Part shown: one piece after another, positions 3,848 through 36,428 of the stretch | Position numbering within the stretch: the stretch's first letter is position 1 | How the letters are laid out: each line of letters starts with the position of its first letter | Position numbers and translations under genes: made by a program | The notes under the pieces: generated by a model | Databases searched by the model: none | What the model saw: only the letters and a program-made list of their open reading frames with translations | What the model was told of the DNA's origin: nothing | Assembly (NCBI RefSeq): GCF_000283515.1 | Contig: NC_015976.1 | Span: 1,426,001 to 1,490,000, forward strand | Direction: 5' to 3' | Length of the DNA stretch: 64,000 bases | Source of the DNA: Sphingobium sp. SYK-6 | GTDB lineage: Bacteria; Pseudomonadota; Alphaproteobacteria; Sphingomonadales; Sphingomonadaceae

Positions 3848-5196
3848 CGGTCAGCGATCTTTTTCAGATCGGCGTGTCCGGCGCGCGCTCCTATCAGGCG
3901 GCGATGGGCGCGGTGTCCAACAACATCGCCAACACCGACACCCCCGGCTACAGCCGCCGCACGATCGAGGTCAAGGAATCCCCCTCCGGCGCGGGGACGA
4001 CCATCTGGTACCGCTCCGGCATCGCTTATGGCGGCGCCATGATCGGGCAGGTGATGCGCGCCAGCGATCCCTATCTGGATTCCGCAGCACGCCACACCGG
4101 CAACGCGCTGGGCAGCGTGGACCAGCGCGCGCGCTGGATGAACGACATCCAGACCGCGCTCAACGACGGAACGCTCGGCGTGGGCCAGCGCATGACGGCG
4201 ATGTTCTCGGCCGTCGAGCGGCTGGCGTCGAACCCCACCGACACGACGCTGCGCGCCGACGTGCTCTTCTCCTTCGAGCAGATCAACACGGCCTTCAAGC
4301 AGAGCCATGGCGATCTGGTCGCGATCCGGGATTCGATCGGACAGGCGGCGACGAGCGACGTTGCCGCGCTCAACGATGCGCTCCAGCAACTCGCCACGGC
4401 CAATGAAGGCCTGCGGCGATCGCAGGAAGGGACGTCCGCGCATGTGAGCCTGCTCGATTCGCGGGACCAGGCGCTGTTCGAGATCACGAAGCGGCTCAAC
4501 GTGACGATCGAATTCGGCGCCAATGACGTCGCCAACGTCAAATATGGCTCGGAGACGCTCGTCGAGAATGTCAGCGCCACGCAGATCTTCGTCAGCCAGG
4601 ACGCGGACGGGCTGCTGCATTTCCAGGCCGGGGATGCCGGTCCGACGGGCACGGCGATCGCGGACCCGGCCGGCGGCTCGCTGGGCGGGCTCACCAGCAG
4701 CGCGAAGATCACCAAGGAGCGGATCGAGGCGGTCAACGATCTCGCCGCCGAATATGTCGAGGTCATCAATGACTGGCACATGCAGGGCCAGACCGCCGAC
4801 GGGACGCCCGGTGCCGCGATGCTCTCGATCGGCGCCGATGCGGCCTCGCTCGAGGTTCTGATCACCGATCCCGCCGGGGTCGCCGGCGCTTCCGCATCGG
4901 GTGCGATCAACGGCAATCTGCTTGCGATCACGGCCATCCGGGGCTCGGGTTCGGTCGAGGACAAGTGGCTTTCGCTCATCTCGACGCATGGCAATCTGGT
5001 CAGCGCCACATTCGCCGAGCAGACGGCGGCATCCAATCGCGACCAGATGGCGCAGGCGGCGCGCGCCGACGTCAGCGGCGTCAATCTCGACCGGGAAGCG
5101 GCCGATCTCCTCCGGCTGCAACAGGCCTATCAGGCCTGCGCCCGCGTCATCCAGGTGGCGCGGGAGATCACCGACTCCCTCTTCGCAATCTTCTGA
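3844..5196 (+). CDS. flgK: Flagellar hook-associated protein 1 FlgK
   Basis: A 450-residue hook-filament junction protein. The N-terminus has VSNNIANTDTPGYSRRTIEV, the signature shared by FlgK and rod/hook proteins but with the FlgK form TPGYSR. The C-terminus (GVNLDREAADLLRLQQAYQA, then ARVIQVAREITDSLF) is the terminal helical pair seen in FlgK. The length is at the short end for the family, meaning smaller surface domains. The start overlaps the flgJ stop; flgL follows after 25 bp. Export is by the flagellar type III system. Confidence 0.95.
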   Translation: MTVSDLFQIGVSGARSYQAAMGAVSNNIANTDTPGYSRRTIEVKESPSGAGTTIWYRSGIAYGGAMIGQVMRASDPYLDSAARHTGNALGSVDQRARWMNDIQTALNDGTLGVGQRMTAMFSAVERLASNPTDTTLRADVLFSFEQINTAFKQSHGDLVAIRDSIGQAATSDVAALNDALQQLATANEGLRRSQEGTSAHVSLLDSRDQALFEITKRLNVTIEFGANDVANVKYGSETLVENVSATQIFVSQDADGLLHFQAGDAGPTGTAIADPAGGSLGGLTSSAKITKERIEAVNDLAAEYVEVINDWHMQGQTADGTPGAAMLSIGADAASLEVLITDPAGVAGASASGAINGNLLAITAIRGSGSVEDKWLSLISTHGNLVSATFAEQTAASNRDQMAQAARADVSGVNLDREAADLLRLQQAYQACARVIQVAREITDSLFAIF

Positions 5197-11500: not shown

Positions 11501-13531
11501 ATGAGATCCATTCGCTTGCTGGCGTCCAGCCTCGCCGTCGCTTCCGTGCTCGCCTCCTCCGCCGCGCTTGCGGAGACCGAGAGCTTTTCCGTGATCTATG
11601 GCCAGAAACCCGTCGGGCACATGACGGCCGATGTAGAGAACGGCAAGACGAGCATCGTGTTCGACTACAAGAACAATGGTCGCGGCCCGACCATCGCCGA
11701 AACGCTGGCGACCGATGCCAGCGGTCTTCCGACGAGCTGGACAGTGACCGGCAGCACCACCTTCGGCAGCAAGGTCGATGAGCGCTTCTCGATCCGGGGC
11801 CGCAAGGCGACGTGGACGGACTCGACCGGCTCGGGCAGCGCGACCGTCAGCCAGCCCAGCCTGTACGTCCCGCAGAGCGGCAGCCCGTGGTCTCTTTGGG
11901 TGCAGGCCAGCCAGCTTCTCAGGGACGCGGACAATGCCATGCCGGCGCTGCCGGGCGGCACGCTGCGCCTCGCCAAGGGAGAGGCGTTCCAGGTCAAGGG
12001 GGAGGGCGGTGATCTGCAGGTCACTACGCTCACCATCTCCGGTGTCGATCTCAATCCCAGCTATCTCGCGGTCGATCCGGCGGGAAAGCTGTTCGCTTTC
12101 ATGACTCCCGAGTTCGTGGTCGTCCGGAAAGGCTATGAAGGGGAGGAAGCGCGGCTGCGCGGTATTGCCGAACGGCTTTCGACCCAGCGTTATGTCGACA
12201 TGCAGACGCGTTTTGGCCATCGCTATGGCAAGCCCGTGCGCATCACCAATGTGCGCCTGTTCGATCCCGCGGCGATGGCGCTGACGGCGCCCGTCTCGGT
12301 CGTCGTGTCCGGCGAGCGGATCTCCGCCGTGGAGCCGCTCGACAGCCCCGCCACGCCCGGCGAAGTCCGGATCGACGGCGGCGGCGGCACGCTCATTCCC
12401 GGCCTGACCGACATGCACGGCCATCTCGACCAGGACAGCGCGATGCTGAACATCCTGGCGGGCATCACGACCGTGCGCGACATGGGCAACGACAATGCGG
12501 TGCTGGACCAGCTCGTCGACCGCATGGACCGGGGCGAGATCGCCGGGCCGCGCGTGGTGCGCAGCGGCTTCATCGAAGGCAAGAGCCAGTTCAATGCCAA
12601 TAACGGCATTCTCGTCGGTAATCAGGCCGAGGCGCTGGACGCGGTGCGCTGGTATGCCGCGCGCGATTTCTGGCAGATCAAGGTCTACAACAGCATGAAC
12701 CCGGCCTGGGTGCCGGCGATGGTCGAGGAAGCGCACCGGCTGGGGCTGCGCGTCACGGGCCATGTGCCCGCCTTCACCAATGCGGATGCGATGATCGCCG
12801 CCGGCTATGACGAGCTGACCCATATCAACCAGGTCATCCTCGGCTGGGTGCTGGCGCCCGACGAGGACCCGCGCACCTTGCTGCGCATCACAGCGCTCAA
12901 GCGGCTGCCCGGCCTCGACCTTGGCAGTGCGCCCGTGCGGAAGACGCTGGACAGCATGGCCGCGAAGAAGATCGCGCTGGACCCGACGCTGGTGATCCAC
13001 GAGCAGGCTCTGCTCGGCCGCGACGGGACGGCGACGCCCAATATGGCGGATGTCTACGACTACATGCCGGTGAGCGTGCAGCGGAGCCTGAAGCAGCAGA
13101 TGCTCGACACCTCGGCGGCCGGTGATGACGCGGCTTACCGGGCCGCGTTCGACCAGATCGTCGCAACGATCAGGGCCATGCACGAGCGCGGGATATTCAT
13201 CGTGCCCGGCACCGATCTGGGCGGGGCGTTCAACCTGCATCGCGAGCTGGAGCTCTACCAGAAGATCGGCATGACGCCCGCGCAGATCCTCAAGCGGGCC
13301 ACGCTGGACGTGCAGGCCTATATTGGGCAGGACCAGTCGACGGGCTCGATCGCCAAAGGCAAGCTCGCCGACTTCTTCCTCATCCCGGGCGATCCCCTGC
13401 AGGACCTGAAGGCGACCAAGCGCATAGCCATGGTGATGAAGGGCGGCGTCGCTTATTTCCCGGCGGAAGCCTATCCGGAGTTCGGCATCAAGCCGCTGGC
13501 GCAGGCGCCCGAGGTGACCGGCGCGGAGTGA
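11501..13531 (+). CDS. Secreted metal-dependent amidohydrolase
   Basis: A 676-residue protein with a signal peptide (MRSIRLLASSLAVASVLAS, cleavage near ALA|E). Residues about 25-240 form an N-terminal domain without obvious relatives. Residues about 245 onward are an amidohydrolase-superfamily TIM barrel: LIPGLTDMHGHLDQ with the HxH metal pair, GITTVRDMGN, a later His in RVTGHVPAF and ELTHINQ, and Asp in VPGTDLGG. The C-terminal IAKGKLADFFLIPGDPL closes the fold. Homologues are often annotated as imidazolonepropionase-like or dipeptidase-like enzymes; the substrate cannot be read from sequence. It probably acts in the periplasm. Confidence 0.88.
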   Translation: MRSIRLLASSLAVASVLASSAALAETESFSVIYGQKPVGHMTADVENGKTSIVFDYKNNGRGPTIAETLATDASGLPTSWTVTGSTTFGSKVDERFSIRGRKATWTDSTGSGSATVSQPSLYVPQSGSPWSLWVQASQLLRDADNAMPALPGGTLRLAKGEAFQVKGEGGDLQVTTLTISGVDLNPSYLAVDPAGKLFAFMTPEFVVVRKGYEGEEARLRGIAERLSTQRYVDMQTRFGHRYGKPVRITNVRLFDPAAMALTAPVSVVVSGERISAVEPLDSPATPGEVRIDGGGGTLIPGLTDMHGHLDQDSAMLNILAGITTVRDMGNDNAVLDQLVDRMDRGEIAGPRVVRSGFIEGKSQFNANNGILVGNQAEALDAVRWYAARDFWQIKVYNSMNPAWVPAMVEEAHRLGLRVTGHVPAFTNADAMIAAGYDELTHINQVILGWVLAPDEDPRTLLRITALKRLPGLDLGSAPVRKTLDSMAAKKIALDPTLVIHEQALLGRDGTATPNMADVYDYMPVSVQRSLKQQMLDTSAAGDDAAYRAAFDQIVATIRAMHERGIFIVPGTDLGGAFNLHRELELYQKIGMTPAQILKRATLDVQAYIGQDQSTGSIAKGKLADFFLIPGDPLQDLKATKRIAMVMKGGVAYFPAEAYPEFGIKPLAQAPEVTGAE

Positions 13532-13689
13532 GGAGAGGGCGGGGCAGCGCGGCCTCGCCCCGAAATTGCACTCGCCGCCGCCATCGTCTATCAGGTCGGC
13601 CCACAGCCCCCGGCGTTCGCTGATCCTTGCCGATTCGCGTCGCCGGGGTCTTGGTTTTTCGTTCACCGCTTGCGAGTAGGCACCCCATC

Positions 13690-14469
13690 ATGTCCCGTCG
13701 CCGCCAAATCTACGAGGGCAAGGCGAAGATCCTTTATGAAGGACCCGAACCCGGCACGCTGATCCAGTATTTCAAGGATGATGCAACGGCCTTCAATGCC
13801 CAGAAGAAGGGCACGATCTCGGGCAAGGGCGTGCTCAACAACCGGATTTCCGAGCATATCTTCACGCTGCTCGCCAATATCGGCGTGCCGACGCATTTCA
13901 TTAAGCGGCTCAACATGCGCGAGCAGCTCATCCGCCAGGTCGAGATCGTGCCGATCGAAGTGGTGGTGCGCAATGTGGCGGCGGGCTCGCTCTCGACGCG
14001 CCTGGGCATCGAGGAAGGCGCGCAGCTGCCCCGCACGCTGATCGAATATTACTACAAGGACGATGCCCTCGGCGATCCCATGATCACCGAAGAGCATATC
14101 GCCTGCTTCGGCTGGGCGAGCCAGGAGGAAATGCACGATATCGCCGACATGGCGATCCGCGTGAACGACTTCATGAGCGGCCTGTTCGCCGGCATCGGCA
14201 TTCGCCTGATCGACTTCAAGCTGGAGTTCGGCCGCATCTGGGACGGGGACTTCTCGCGCATCATCCTGGCTGACGAGATCAGCCCGGACGGCTGCCGCCT
14301 GTGGGACATGACGACCAACGAGAAGCTCGACAAGGACCGGTTCCGTCGGGATCTCGGTGGCGAGGTGGAAGCCTATCAGGAAGTCGCGCGGCGCCTTGGC
14401 CTGCTGCCGGAGGGATCGGACACCGACGTGCTCGACCTTGACAGCCACCGCAAGAAGCGCGGCAAGTAA
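13690..14469 (+). CDS. purC: Phosphoribosylaminoimidazole-succinocarboxamide synthase
   Basis: A 259-residue enzyme that joins CAIR and aspartate with ATP to form SAICAR in purine synthesis. [17 protein letters not shown] is the N-terminal ATP-binding signature, and [18 protein letters not shown] and [10 protein letters not shown] are the family motifs. ATG 13690 matches the usual N-terminus; the frame extends 21 codons upstream without homology. Length is normal. No other pur gene is in view; the downstream gene is on the opposite strand. Confidence 0.97.
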
Positions 14470-14539
14470 AAGCAACGGGGAGGGATGCGGTCGGGTGGCG
14501 ATCGCATCCGATCCTCCGCCGAGACGCCCTGAAGGCGCC

Positions 14540-15298
14540 TTACATCATCCCTGCCATTATCCAGAGCGCCATGGCGCTCATCAATATATCCTCCATCAGC
14601 GAGACGAAGCCCAACGGCACATTGCTGCCGCCGCCCACGCAGGCGCATTTGAGGCTGCGCTTCTCGATATAGACGGCCTTGAAGACCGAGACGGTGCCGA
14701 TGCCGCCGATCAGCAGGGCGATGGGCGCAGCGAGCCAGGGCAGGGCGCCCGCCAGCATCAGCACGCCCGCGCCGAGCTGCGCGAAGGGATAGAGATAGGC
14801 GTAAGGCACCCAGCGCCGCGCGAGCAGGTCATAGCCCAGGAACATGGTCGCGAACCGGTCGACATCCTGCAGCTTGAGCATGGCGAGCAGGATCATCGCG
14901 GTGGAAATGAAGCGCTCCACTGTCGCGATCGACAACCAGGGCGTCGCTGTCAGCCAGTCGATGACGAGCGCGATCAGCGCCGCGACGGCGAACAGGGCGA
15001 GGACGGGGACGTAGCTGGTCGCCTGCGGATCATGGACCTTGAGCCCGAGATGGCGGCGCAGGTCGTCATGCCCGCCGATCCGATCGCCATCGATGAAGAT
15101 CTGGGGCGTCGTGCGCACGTCCTGCTCGGCCTTGAATGCATCGGTCTGCGCGCGGCTGGTGAGCCAGCGATCGTCCACCGAAAAGCCCTTGCTGCGCAGG
15201 AGATGCAACGCCTTGAGTCCATAAGGACAGATATGGCCGGGCATGACCATGCGATAGAGAATGGCCTCGCGGCCCACCGGTGCAGCAGAGACAGCCAT
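14540..15298 (-). CDS. Glutaredoxin-MauE/DoxX membrane fusion protein
   Basis: A 252-residue fusion. Residues about 12-85 are a glutaredoxin-like domain with GHICPYGLKAL (single active Cys24, CPYG instead of CPYC), the cis-Pro motif TTPQIFIDG and the terminal RIGGHDDL. Residues about 95-252 are a MauE/DoxX-type bundle of four membrane helices ending with a CAC motif (SLKCACVGGGSNVPLGFVSL). MauE proteins help disulfide formation in methylamine dehydrogenase; here the fusion suggests thiol-redox work at the membrane. ATG 15298 has an AAGGAAGG Shine-Dalgarno and lies downstream of the MerR-type promoter at 15333-15363; an upstream in-frame start would lie before the transcription start. Induction by the divergent MerR regulator is expected. 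Confidence 0.85.
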   Translation of the reverse strand: MAVSAAPVGREAILYRMVMPGHICPYGLKALHLLRSKGFSVDDRWLTSRAQTDAFKAEQDVRTTPQIFIDGDRIGGHDDLRRHLGLKVHDPQATSYVPVLALFAVAALIALVIDWLTATPWLSIATVERFISTAMILLAMLKLQDVDRFATMFLGYDLLARRWVPYAYLYPFAQLGAGVLMLAGALPWLAAPIALLIGGIGTVSVFKAVYIEKRSLKCACVGGGSNVPLGFVSLMEDILMSAMALWIMAGMM

Positions 15299-15332
15299 GC
15301 CGTCCTTCCTTGTTCTGATCGTGCTGCGTCCC

Positions 15333-15363
15333 ATATAGGGTCCGTACCATGGTACGGAGTCAA
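15333..15363 (-). promoter_or_regulatory. MerR-type promoter-operator with 19-bp spacer and mer-like dyad
   Basis: On the minus strand the -35 box is TTGACT (15363-15358) and the -10 box CTATAT (15338-15333), separated by exactly 19 bp. That overlong spacer is the hallmark of promoters untwisted by MerR-family activators. The spacer holds the perfect palindrome TCCGTACCATGGTACGGA (15341-15358). Its half-sites TCCGTAC and GTACGGA with a 4-bp gap match the classical mer operator. It drives the glutaredoxin-MauE gene. The right arm also supplies the GGAG Shine-Dalgarno of the divergent regulator. Confidence 0.85.
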
Positions 15364-15365
15364 GC

Positions 15366-15812
15366 ATGGCAGGCATGACGATATCGAAACTTGCGCAAGC
15401 GGGCGGCGTTGGCGTCGAGACGGTGCGTTATTATCAGCGCCGCGGGCTCCTGGCGCTGCCTGAGCGGGGCGGGGGGCGCGCGCTATCCGGGGGCGTGCGG
15501 CGTTATGATGACGAGGATGTGCGCCGCCTGCGCTTCATCCGCTCGGCCCAGTTGGCTGGCTTCACTCTGGATGCGATCGGAGAGCTGCTCTCGCTGGACG
15601 CGGGGGAAGACCGGGTACGCGCGCGCCAGCTCGCCGCCGAGAGGTTGACGGCGCTGGATGCCAAAATCGCCGAGCTTCAGCGTGCCCGGGCGGTGTTGCA
15701 AAAACTCGCGCTGGAATGCGAATCCTCGGGGATGGGGCCATGCCCGATCCTCTCTTCGTTCGATGACGCCGCCGAGTCGCGCCCGCAAACGGGTGGGGTG
15801 ACTGCGCTATAG
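15366..15812 (+). CDS. MerR-family metal/thiol-responsive regulator
   Basis: A 148-residue activator. Residues 4-70 are the winged helix (TISKLAQAGGVGVETVRYYQ, then RRYDDEDVRRLRFI), close to mercury MerR except for a Gly-rich insertion near residue 35. A dimerisation helix follows. The C-terminal loop has Cys118 and Cys126 in LECESSGMGPCPIL, a CX7C motif as in CueR. The first Hg-binding cysteine of MerR (in GTHC) is replaced here (GEDR). The inducer is therefore probably a soft metal such as Cu(I), Ag(I) or Hg(II), or a thiol stress. GGAG at 15356-15359 supports the start at 15366. Confidence 0.9.
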   Translation: MAGMTISKLAQAGGVGVETVRYYQRRGLLALPERGGGRALSGGVRRYDDEDVRRLRFIRSAQLAGFTLDAIGELLSLDAGEDRVRARQLAAERLTALDAKIAELQRARAVLQKLALECESSGMGPCPILSSFDDAAESRPQTGGVTAL

Positions 15813-15989: not shown

Positions 15990-16817
15990 ATGTTGAAGTT
16001 CAATGTTCTTACGACTGCGGCGATGGCCGCACTTGCGGCCGGCATCGTGATCGCGCAGCCTGCGGTCGCCGCGACGCAGACCGTCACCAGCCTTGGGCTG
16101 CCGGTGCCGGCTGGCACGGCGTGGGGATCGCTTCCCGGCGAGAATACCGGCGGCGGTGACGCTTATATCTCGAGTGCCGCGCCGCGCTCGGGCAATGGTT
16201 CGCTCGAACTGGTCGGCGATCGCACACGCGTTCAGACCGGCTATCAATATGGTGGCCCCGGCGTCGCCACCAATCTCGGCTTGCTTTCGGACGTTCTGAG
16301 CCTGGTCTTCGACTGGCAGGTGGCGGCGGACAGTGCCCGCCAGACTTACACGCCCGCCCTTCGCCTGATGGTGCAGGACGGCGCCCAGCGCAGCGAGCTG
16401 ATCTGGGAAGGCGCGTATAATCCCGGCGTGGGCGGCCTGGCGAGCGCCAATCCGACCGGTGCCTGGTACCGCACCAACAGCACCGATGTCTTCTGGCAGT
16501 TTGCCACGGGTCTGGGCCCCAATGAAGATGGCGGCATGCTGCAGCTCCACACGATCACCGACTGGGCAGCGAGCAACTATTATTCGGACGCTGCCTATGT
16601 GACGGCGATCAGCGTCGGCGCCGGCAGCGGCGCCACGCTCGGCTATCATGCGTTCGTCGACAATGTGACGTTCACCACGACCGGTGGCTCCACCACCTAT
16701 AATTTCGAGATGCAGGCGCCTGTTCCCGAACCGGCGACCTGGGCCATGATGATCGGTGGCCTCGGGCTGGTCGGCGCGAGCATGCGTCGCCGCTCGACCA
16801 AGGTCCAGTTCGCCTGA
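15990..16817 (+). CDS. PEP-CTERM sorting-domain exported protein
   Basis: A 275-residue protein with signal peptide (residues 1-28, cleavage after AVA) and a C-terminal PEP-CTERM signal: PVPEPATWAMMIGGLGLVG followed by SMRRR, that is PEP motif, membrane helix and basic tail. Such tails are cut by an exosortase, and substrates are usually tied to extracellular polysaccharide or biofilm. The middle is a beta-rich domain with many Gly, Ser, Thr and aromatic residues and no catalytic motif I recognise. The promoter region 15854-15957 is AT-rich, and the ribosome site is in a hairpin. A strong terminator follows, so this is a single-gene unit. The exosortase is not in this window. Confidence 0.88.
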   Translation: MLKFNVLTTAAMAALAAGIVIAQPAVAATQTVTSLGLPVPAGTAWGSLPGENTGGGDAYISSAAPRSGNGSLELVGDRTRVQTGYQYGGPGVATNLGLLSDVLSLVFDWQVAADSARQTYTPALRLMVQDGAQRSELIWEGAYNPGVGGLASANPTGAWYRTNSTDVFWQFATGLGPNEDGGMLQLHTITDWAASNYYSDAAYVTAISVGAGSGATLGYHAFVDNVTFTTTGGSTTYNFEMQAPVPEPATWAMMIGGLGLVGASMRRRSTKVQFA

Positions 16818-35999: not shown

Positions 36000-36428
36000 A
36001 TGTCCAAGCCCATGATGATCGCCGGCATCCCGCAGCCCGAGCAGGACGGGCGCGCGGAATTCACCATTACCGATCTTTGCCAGGAGTTCGGCGTCACGCC
36101 GCGGGCGCTGCGTTTTTACGAGGACGAGCGGCTCATCGCGCCGCGTCGCCAGGGACTTGCGCGGGTTTACAGCCAACGCGACCGTGCCCGGCTTGCCTGG
36201 ATTTTGCGGGGCAAGCGCGTCGGCTTCAGCCTCGCCGAAATTCGCGAGATGATCGACCTTTACGATGCTGGCGATGGACGCAGGAGCCAGCGCGAGGTGA
36301 CCATCGACAAATGCCGCGACCGGATCGCGTTGCTCCAGCGCCAGCGCCAGGACATCGACGAGGCGATTGCGGAGCTGAAGGGCTTCATCACACTAGTCGA
36401 AGAGAGTCAGCTTGGCCCCGGGGGCTGA
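36000..36428 (+). CDS. LiuR-like MerR-family regulator
   Basis: A 142-residue regulator. The winged helix spans about residues 20-85 (FTITDLCQEFGVTPRALRFY, then EDERLIAPRRQGLARVYSQR), followed by a dimerisation coiled coil (LLQRQRQDIDEAIAELKGFI). It has no metal-binding cysteine pair, unlike the MerR protein at 15366. Such proteins control branched-chain amino-acid and fatty-acid breakdown, which suits the acyl-CoA dehydrogenase 141 bp downstream. No Shine-Dalgarno precedes the ATG, and the predicted transcription start is at or next to the A of ATG. Confidence 0.88.
   Translation: MSKPMMIAGIPQPEQDGRAEFTITDLCQEFGVTPRALRFYEDERLIAPRRQGLARVYSQRDRARLAWILRGKRVGFSLAEIREMIDLYDAGDGRRSQREVTIDKCRDRIALLQRQRQDIDEAIAELKGFITLVEESQLGPGG

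Follow-up and report, generated by a model that had tools for sequence, protein, structure and literature searches.

A MerR-family regulator, a mer-type operator and the gene of a membrane glutaredoxin form a co-inherited unit in Sphingobium sp. SYK-6. The unit lies on contig C1 of the 4.35-Mb genome (a second contig, C2, is 148.8 kb), within the 64,000-nucleotide stretch of DNA that was analysed as a whole, hereafter the window. It is best read, with a probability of roughly 60%, as a one-target MerR switch that responds to a soft monovalent metal and drives a membrane monothiol glutaredoxin with a role in copper stress. The regulator, operator and target are inherited together, the regulator descends alongside mercury MerR proteins, and homologs of the target recur in copper operons.

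The locus and its promoter

The initial annotation described a glutaredoxin-MauE fusion divergent from a merR gene, and both the Pfam domains and the location of the two coding sequences confirm this arrangement, with merR on the forward strand, the fusion on the reverse strand and a 67-bp intergenic region between them (Table 1). The start of the fusion is the ATG 3' of an AAGGA ribosome-binding site. The longest-ORF start at 15376 was rejected because that ORF would run through the promoter. For the regulator, an internal ATG at 15375 is the start in most homologs and provides an alternative start. The pair is flanked by purC and a PEP-CTERM protein gene and so does not belong to a mau operon; no mau genes were seen in the annotated plasmid regions around homologs. 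The PEPxxWA-CTERM sorting-domain protein, encoded at 15990-16817 directly 3' of merR, is probably unrelated. A distant MerR-family gene (34% identical) lies elsewhere in the window at 36054-36425. The genome's second match to the fusion, at C1:1958243, matches the glutaredoxin domain only and is not a second fusion.

Table 1. Features of the merR/fusion locus, in window positions, and of related plasmid promoters, in positions of the plasmid loci.
Feature	Position	Strand	Basis
Fusion CDS, 252 aa, glutaredoxin-MauE, SmGrx3 family	14540..15298	-	Pfam, homology, AF2 model
Pfam MauE match (PF07291), residues 126-248	14555..14923	-	E 2.5e-10; 41.2 bits, cut-off 27
CAC motif (C218, A219, C220), TM4-TM5 loop	14639..14647	-	invariant in 55/55 homologs
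Glutaredoxin domain, residues 11-83	15050..15268	-	Pfam, model secondary structure, Foldseek
CPYG active site, residues 24-27	15218..15229	-	55-homolog alignment
Probable -10 TATATG	15332..15337	-	TATA columns 87-99% conserved
Operator, 18-bp perfect palindrome TCCGTACCATGGTACGGA	15341..15358	.	mer-type arms (Tn21/Tn501), conservation
-35 TTGACT	15358..15363	-	TTG 100%, ACT 97-99% conserved
MerR-family regulator CDS, 148 aa	15366..15812	+	Pfam MerR_1 + MerR-DNA-bind; tree
Arg83, at position of Tn501 MerR Hg ligand Cys82	15612..15614	+	alignment
C118-X7-C126, predicted metal-binding loop	15717..15743	+	conservation
TTCCAGCGC dyad regions	L147 3975-4100; L153 3950-4090; L148 3945-4140		

Read towards the fusion, the intergenic region runs CTTGACTCCGTACCATGGTACGGACCCTATATGGG, followed by the ribosome-binding site and the ATG. 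The mercury-operator half-sites TCCGTAC-N4-GTACGGA that had been noticed in the spacer are indeed there; with CATG between the arms, the whole 18 bp is palindromic. The palindrome shares one base with the -35 element and fills most of the spacer. The spacer was originally given as 19 bp, which holds if the -10 is CTATAT (15333-15338) and becomes 20 bp with TATATG; the conserved TATA starts 20 bp after the -35. With either length the promoter has the over-long spacer of those controlled by mercury MerR, and its operator has the same arms, which match the mer promoter of a Citrobacter plasmid (TTGACTCCGTACATAACTACGGAAG). A search of the 4.35-Mb genome for the exact core CCGTACN4GTACGG found this site alone. 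A 7-bp arm with a loop of 3-8 bases appeared in ~1.2% of shuffles of the intergenic region (62/5000), so the palindrome by itself is suggestive and conservation decides. Across homologous loci, information reaches ~1.4-2 bits per base over the -35 and dyad and 1.4-1.9 bits over the TATA, and most flanking bases are poorly conserved at ~0-0.8 bits. This comparison of promoter sequences settles that the dyad is not accidental.

Co-inheritance of the unit and ancestry of the regulator

Homologs of the fusion were taken from GTDB genomes and relatives, giving 100 loci with the full fusion. At 80 of these a divergent MerR gene lies upstream, and every one of the 80 carries the promoter-dyad, matching 20-23 positions of a 23-bp consensus. 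The dyad stands without MerR at a single locus, where the contig ends before the regulator; the remaining 19 MerR-less loci have no such element. Conservation of the dyad at homologous loci had been named beforehand as the test on which the switch model could fail, and it held, the dyad accompanying MerR and MerR-less loci lacking both. The relatives recovered by the searches were Sphingobium and neighbouring genera. When 61 relative genomes were searched for the operator with at most one mismatch, all 22 matches lay, judged by their coordinates, directly upstream of a fusion gene, and a reversed-pattern control over the same genomes gave zero. This distribution points to a regulon with the glutaredoxin-MauE gene as its single target. 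Among the 61, an ortholog of the regulator with >60% identity is present in each of the 24 same-genus genomes with a fusion and absent from all others. The exact co-occurrence of regulator, operator and target, with no other operator site in these genomes, strongly supports the earlier proposal of a self-contained switch.

Some genomes carry the unit more than once. Genome G010 has two complete MerR-operator-fusion units, at C1:1196235 and C3:318939 (L083, L178), each with its own operator, and G024 has two fusions and two MerRs. An unannotated gap (4468-4968) on Agrobacterium plasmid pAtH25_79b (L154) encodes a MerR whose alignment covers only residues 4-82. It adjoins a perfect operator, lies within a copper island and may be a private regulator in decay.

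As the fusion was found in 6 of 115 alphaproteobacterial genomes (drawn evenly), it is a patchy and probably mobile gene. Matches occur in 297 plasmid records, and in 284 of these the match covers most of the protein. Plasmid copies in Sinorhizobium, Shinella, Gemmobacter, Sphingomonas, Blastomonas and even Legionella have both MerR and dyad, and those in Sulfitobacter, Phaeobacter, Alteromonas and Paracoccus have neither this clade's MerR nor the dyad.

The regulator is closest to mercury MerR proteins. Its best family matches are the mercury MerR models of NCBIfam, although it scores 103.8 bits against the equivalog TIGR02051, 47 bits short of the 150.85 cut-off; the CueR equivalog gives 78.3 bits against a cut-off of 147.4. 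In a maximum-likelihood tree the fusion-linked MerRs are monophyletic (support 99/96) and sister to the Tn501/Tn21-type mercury MerRs (99/95), apart from CueR. The reading helix is nearly identical in the two sister clades (VETVRYYQRRGL vs VETIRFYQRKGL; VETxRxYQR), and the TCCGTAC arms sit on the same -35 in both.

The sensor site is where the sister clades differ. The initial annotation held that the CX7C cysteines were kept and the first Hg cysteine lost, and the alignment agrees: C118 and C126 are present in 64/64 full-length regulator homologs, and the Cys82 position is Arg in fusion-linked regulators, with one His (Gemmobacter) and Cys in none seen. The set of three Hg ligands of mercury MerR (C82, C117, C126) is therefore incomplete. 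A CX7C loop without the third cysteine is instead the layout of the CueR/HmrR Cu(I) regulators, which form a separate clade with a different operator (TTGACCTTCC...) but whose CueR genes adjoin the same target, the fusion, in Roseobacteraceae. The X7 spacing alone is not diagnostic, as the MerR on this genome's contig C2 combines X7 with a third cysteine. In metal-responsive MerR proteins, Cys at the residue equivalent to 82 is associated with the sensing of divalent metals, and its loss with the sensing of monovalent ones (Ser77 in CueR). Arg at this position is unlike Ser77, hence selectivity cannot be read off by analogy.

Because of its ancestry and of operator arms that match mer promoters, the regulator could be thought still to sense Hg(II), with the fusion as an accessory mercury-resistance gene. 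This is very unlikely, since C82 is absent in every fusion-linked regulator seen, the loop is CX7C and not the CX8C of mercury MerR, and the equivalog score falls below its cut-off. In place of merTPA the regulator has the one target, and neither MerP nor a true MerA was found beside the 100 fusion loci, only MerA-like paralogs of 30-33% identity at two. The initial remark that merA, merT and merP are missing is correct beside the locus; elsewhere in the genome it is not, as contig C2 carries a bona fide mer operon at 12874-15566 (L130, L138) that comprises MerA (529 bits, above the cut-off), its own MerR and a MerP-like gene. The dyad of that mer promoter, CTGTAG-TGG-CTACAG, differs from the window's operator, and the genome's own mercury switch thus looks insulated from it. 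A mercury role was accordingly set aside, as the Hg ligand is lost and mer genes are not nearby, and a soft monovalent metal remains the favoured signal.

SYK-6 also has copper genes at a distance from the locus. Three copAB-type clusters lie at C1:3342215-3345755 and C2:68000-80237 (L139-L141), two of them with an apparent ECF-type sigma factor gene in front. A CueR-like gene is found at C2:85155. The window's operator is used by none of these three clusters, nor by the CueR-like gene.

Copper genes around homologs of the fusion

Copper markers within 5 kb accompany 9/20 loci without MerR versus 4/80 with it (Fisher p=4e-5), or 6/13 versus 3/45 when only full-flank loci are counted (p=0.0025), the loci being phylogenetically related and the counts and p-values thus not independent. 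The arrangements are diverse. MerR-less Hyphomonadaceae have copA-copB-DUF305-grx (L056, L057, L066; L075 has the same order without DUF305), Hoeflea and Roseobacteraceae plasmids have CopA ATPase-CueR-DUF305-grx (L076, L147, L153), and Alteromonas has DUF305-grx-copA-copB (L145). In Alteripontixanthobacter (L052) a CsoR-type repressor gene lies 5' of grx, divergent from copAB, and a further locus (L103) reads CsoR-grx-cytochrome c-CopC. MerR-type units also occur inside copper islands (L043, L031, L041, L120, L121), among them that of Sphingopyxis indica, where grx is followed by copA and copB, and those of Blastomonas pBSY18_2, S. yanoikuyae pSES220 and others. Most MerR-type loci, including that of SYK-6, have no copper gene nearby.

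The fusion gene is thus under its private MerR or, where it has joined a copper operon, probably under that operon's control. Within copper operons the private MerR is usually absent, and CueR, CsoR or another regulator of the operon would probably take over. In Roseobacteraceae, dyads of the TTGACCTTCC type lie in the CopA promoter, and on three plasmids a looser, imperfect dyad around TTCCAGCGC is shared 5' of DUF305-grx (Table 1). The two dyads are unlike, and no CueR box is claimed 5' of DUF305-grx.

Taken together, the two contexts have copper, or a chemically similar soft metal, as their simplest common denominator. Of the metal-or-thiol switch first suggested, the self-contained part is the firmer, and the soft-metal signal is supported indirectly by the copper-operon context and the CueR-like two-cysteine sensor. 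The genome context may also reflect hitch-hiking, with the fusion a general redox gene on plasmids that happen to bear copper islands. The number of plasmid copies would fit this, but we regard it as quite unlikely given the repeated same-strand linkage with different copper modules in unrelated lineages (Alteromonas, Roseobacteraceae, Hyphomonadaceae, an Erythrobacteraceae-type lineage and the CsoR-CopC locus) and the near mutual exclusivity of private MerR and copper-operon residence.

The fusion protein and a proposed mechanism

The N-terminal half of the fusion matches Pfam Glutaredoxin (PF00462; E 1e-6, over cut-off) and has the one-cysteine CPYG active site that had been proposed, with C24, P25 and G27 invariant in 55 homologs. 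Also invariant are R16, M17, H22, TPQ, GG, M135, M181 and C218-A-C220, and M19, M240, M243 and M247 are conserved in ~90% or more. An AF2 model (mean pLDDT 91) consists of a glutaredoxin fold and five long helices. These are predicted to be membrane helices (97-116, 124-143, 164-183, 187-211, 231-251), in place of the four-helix membrane domain first described. The CAC motif is conserved as had been stated, but the model places it between TM4 and TM5, not at the end of the protein. Against solved structures, Foldseek matches only the glutaredoxin half convincingly. Positive charge is more abundant in the presumed inner loops, a pattern consistent with the glutaredoxin domain and the CAC loop both being cytoplasmic. 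Cu(I) would be a fitting ligand for the Met, His and Cys residues near the active site and within the membrane.

The closest described protein is SmGrx3 (SMa0280) of Sinorhizobium meliloti, a CPYG glutaredoxin with a MauE domain. Its function is reported as unknown, its deglutathionylation activity as low and an Smgrx3 mutant as having no phenotype (PMC6315971). The window's fusion has the same architecture, with a CPYG glutaredoxin domain and a C-terminal MauE domain, and is ~61% identical to a homolog on S. meliloti pSymA, which, going by the description, would be SMa0280. The gene of this homolog also has a divergent merR beside it, and the same dyad (TTGACTCTGTACCATGCTACGGA), whereas the published account, in its available part, makes no mention of a regulator, an operator or copper (PMC6315971). 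A second parallel is GigT of the Cupriavidus gig operon, a DoxX-related protein linked to copper/gold resistance and glutathione (PMC10304878). The likeness to the MauE-like membrane domain is by description only, and no glutaredoxin domain is described for GigT (PMC10304878). A Burkholderia glumae plasmid (L152, 2400-6381) carries merR-merC beside genes for DUF692, a putative DNA-binding protein and a member of the DoxX family. These resemble the Cupriavidus gig (gold-induced) set, here placed next to a mercury regulator.

The activity of SmGrx3, which is also listed as heat-shock induced (PMC6315971), bears on a different reading. Disulfide or electrophile stress would then be sensed directly by C118 and C126, and the fusion would serve as a general enzyme of deglutathionylation at the membrane. 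The intact glutathione-binding motifs of the fusion, TTP and GG.DD, and the absence of copper genes near most MerR loci agree with such a thiol/redox switch. We nevertheless consider it unlikely, as metal MerR proteins have a metal-binding loop of just this layout, CX7C and then PI(L/I), and homologs of the fusion cluster with copper genes and copper regulators, not with oxidative-stress genes.

For the metal-responsive switch, we infer the inducer and biochemistry as follows. A regulator dimer would sit on the palindrome and keep the promoter off. Binding of a soft monovalent metal via C118 and C126, most likely of Cu(I) and perhaps of Ag or Au, would untwist the 19-20 bp spacer such that RNA polymerase can use the promoter. 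Hg(II) is not expected as natural inducer because its selective third ligand is replaced by Arg. The product would be a membrane-tethered monothiol glutaredoxin with both its glutaredoxin domain (M17/M19/H22/C24 and the glutathione-binding residues) and its CAC loop on the cytoplasmic side, and at the inner membrane it may handle thiols under Cu(I) stress or Cu(I)-glutathione. A bolder version is put forward tentatively: a mercury-type MerR may have kept its DNA site and swapped a three-Cys Hg(II) site for two Cys and a charge-balancing Arg, becoming a private Cu(I)/Ag/Au switch, with glutaredoxin-MauE as a new membrane class handling Cu(I)/glutathione via M17/H22/C24, the membrane methionines and the CAC loop.

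The SmGrx3 fusion family and the MerR mechanism are already known. Beyond PMC6315971, searches of open-access literature gave nothing relevant on the fusion family with copper or MerR: no report was found there of a mer-type private switch of glutaredoxin-MauE, of Hg-ligand loss with the operator retained, or of a copper link of the family.

The locus offers a natural experiment in metal selectivity, in which sister clades share one operator and differ in the residue at the position that separates Hg(II) from monovalent sensing. Because the operator is common to both, the fusion gene could also be subject to cross-talk from a Tn501/Tn21 mercury regulator that enters the cell. For a widespread glutaredoxin fusion of unknown function, these results give a concrete, testable role in copper or soft-metal stress, and the switch promoter is a ready-made means of testing it.
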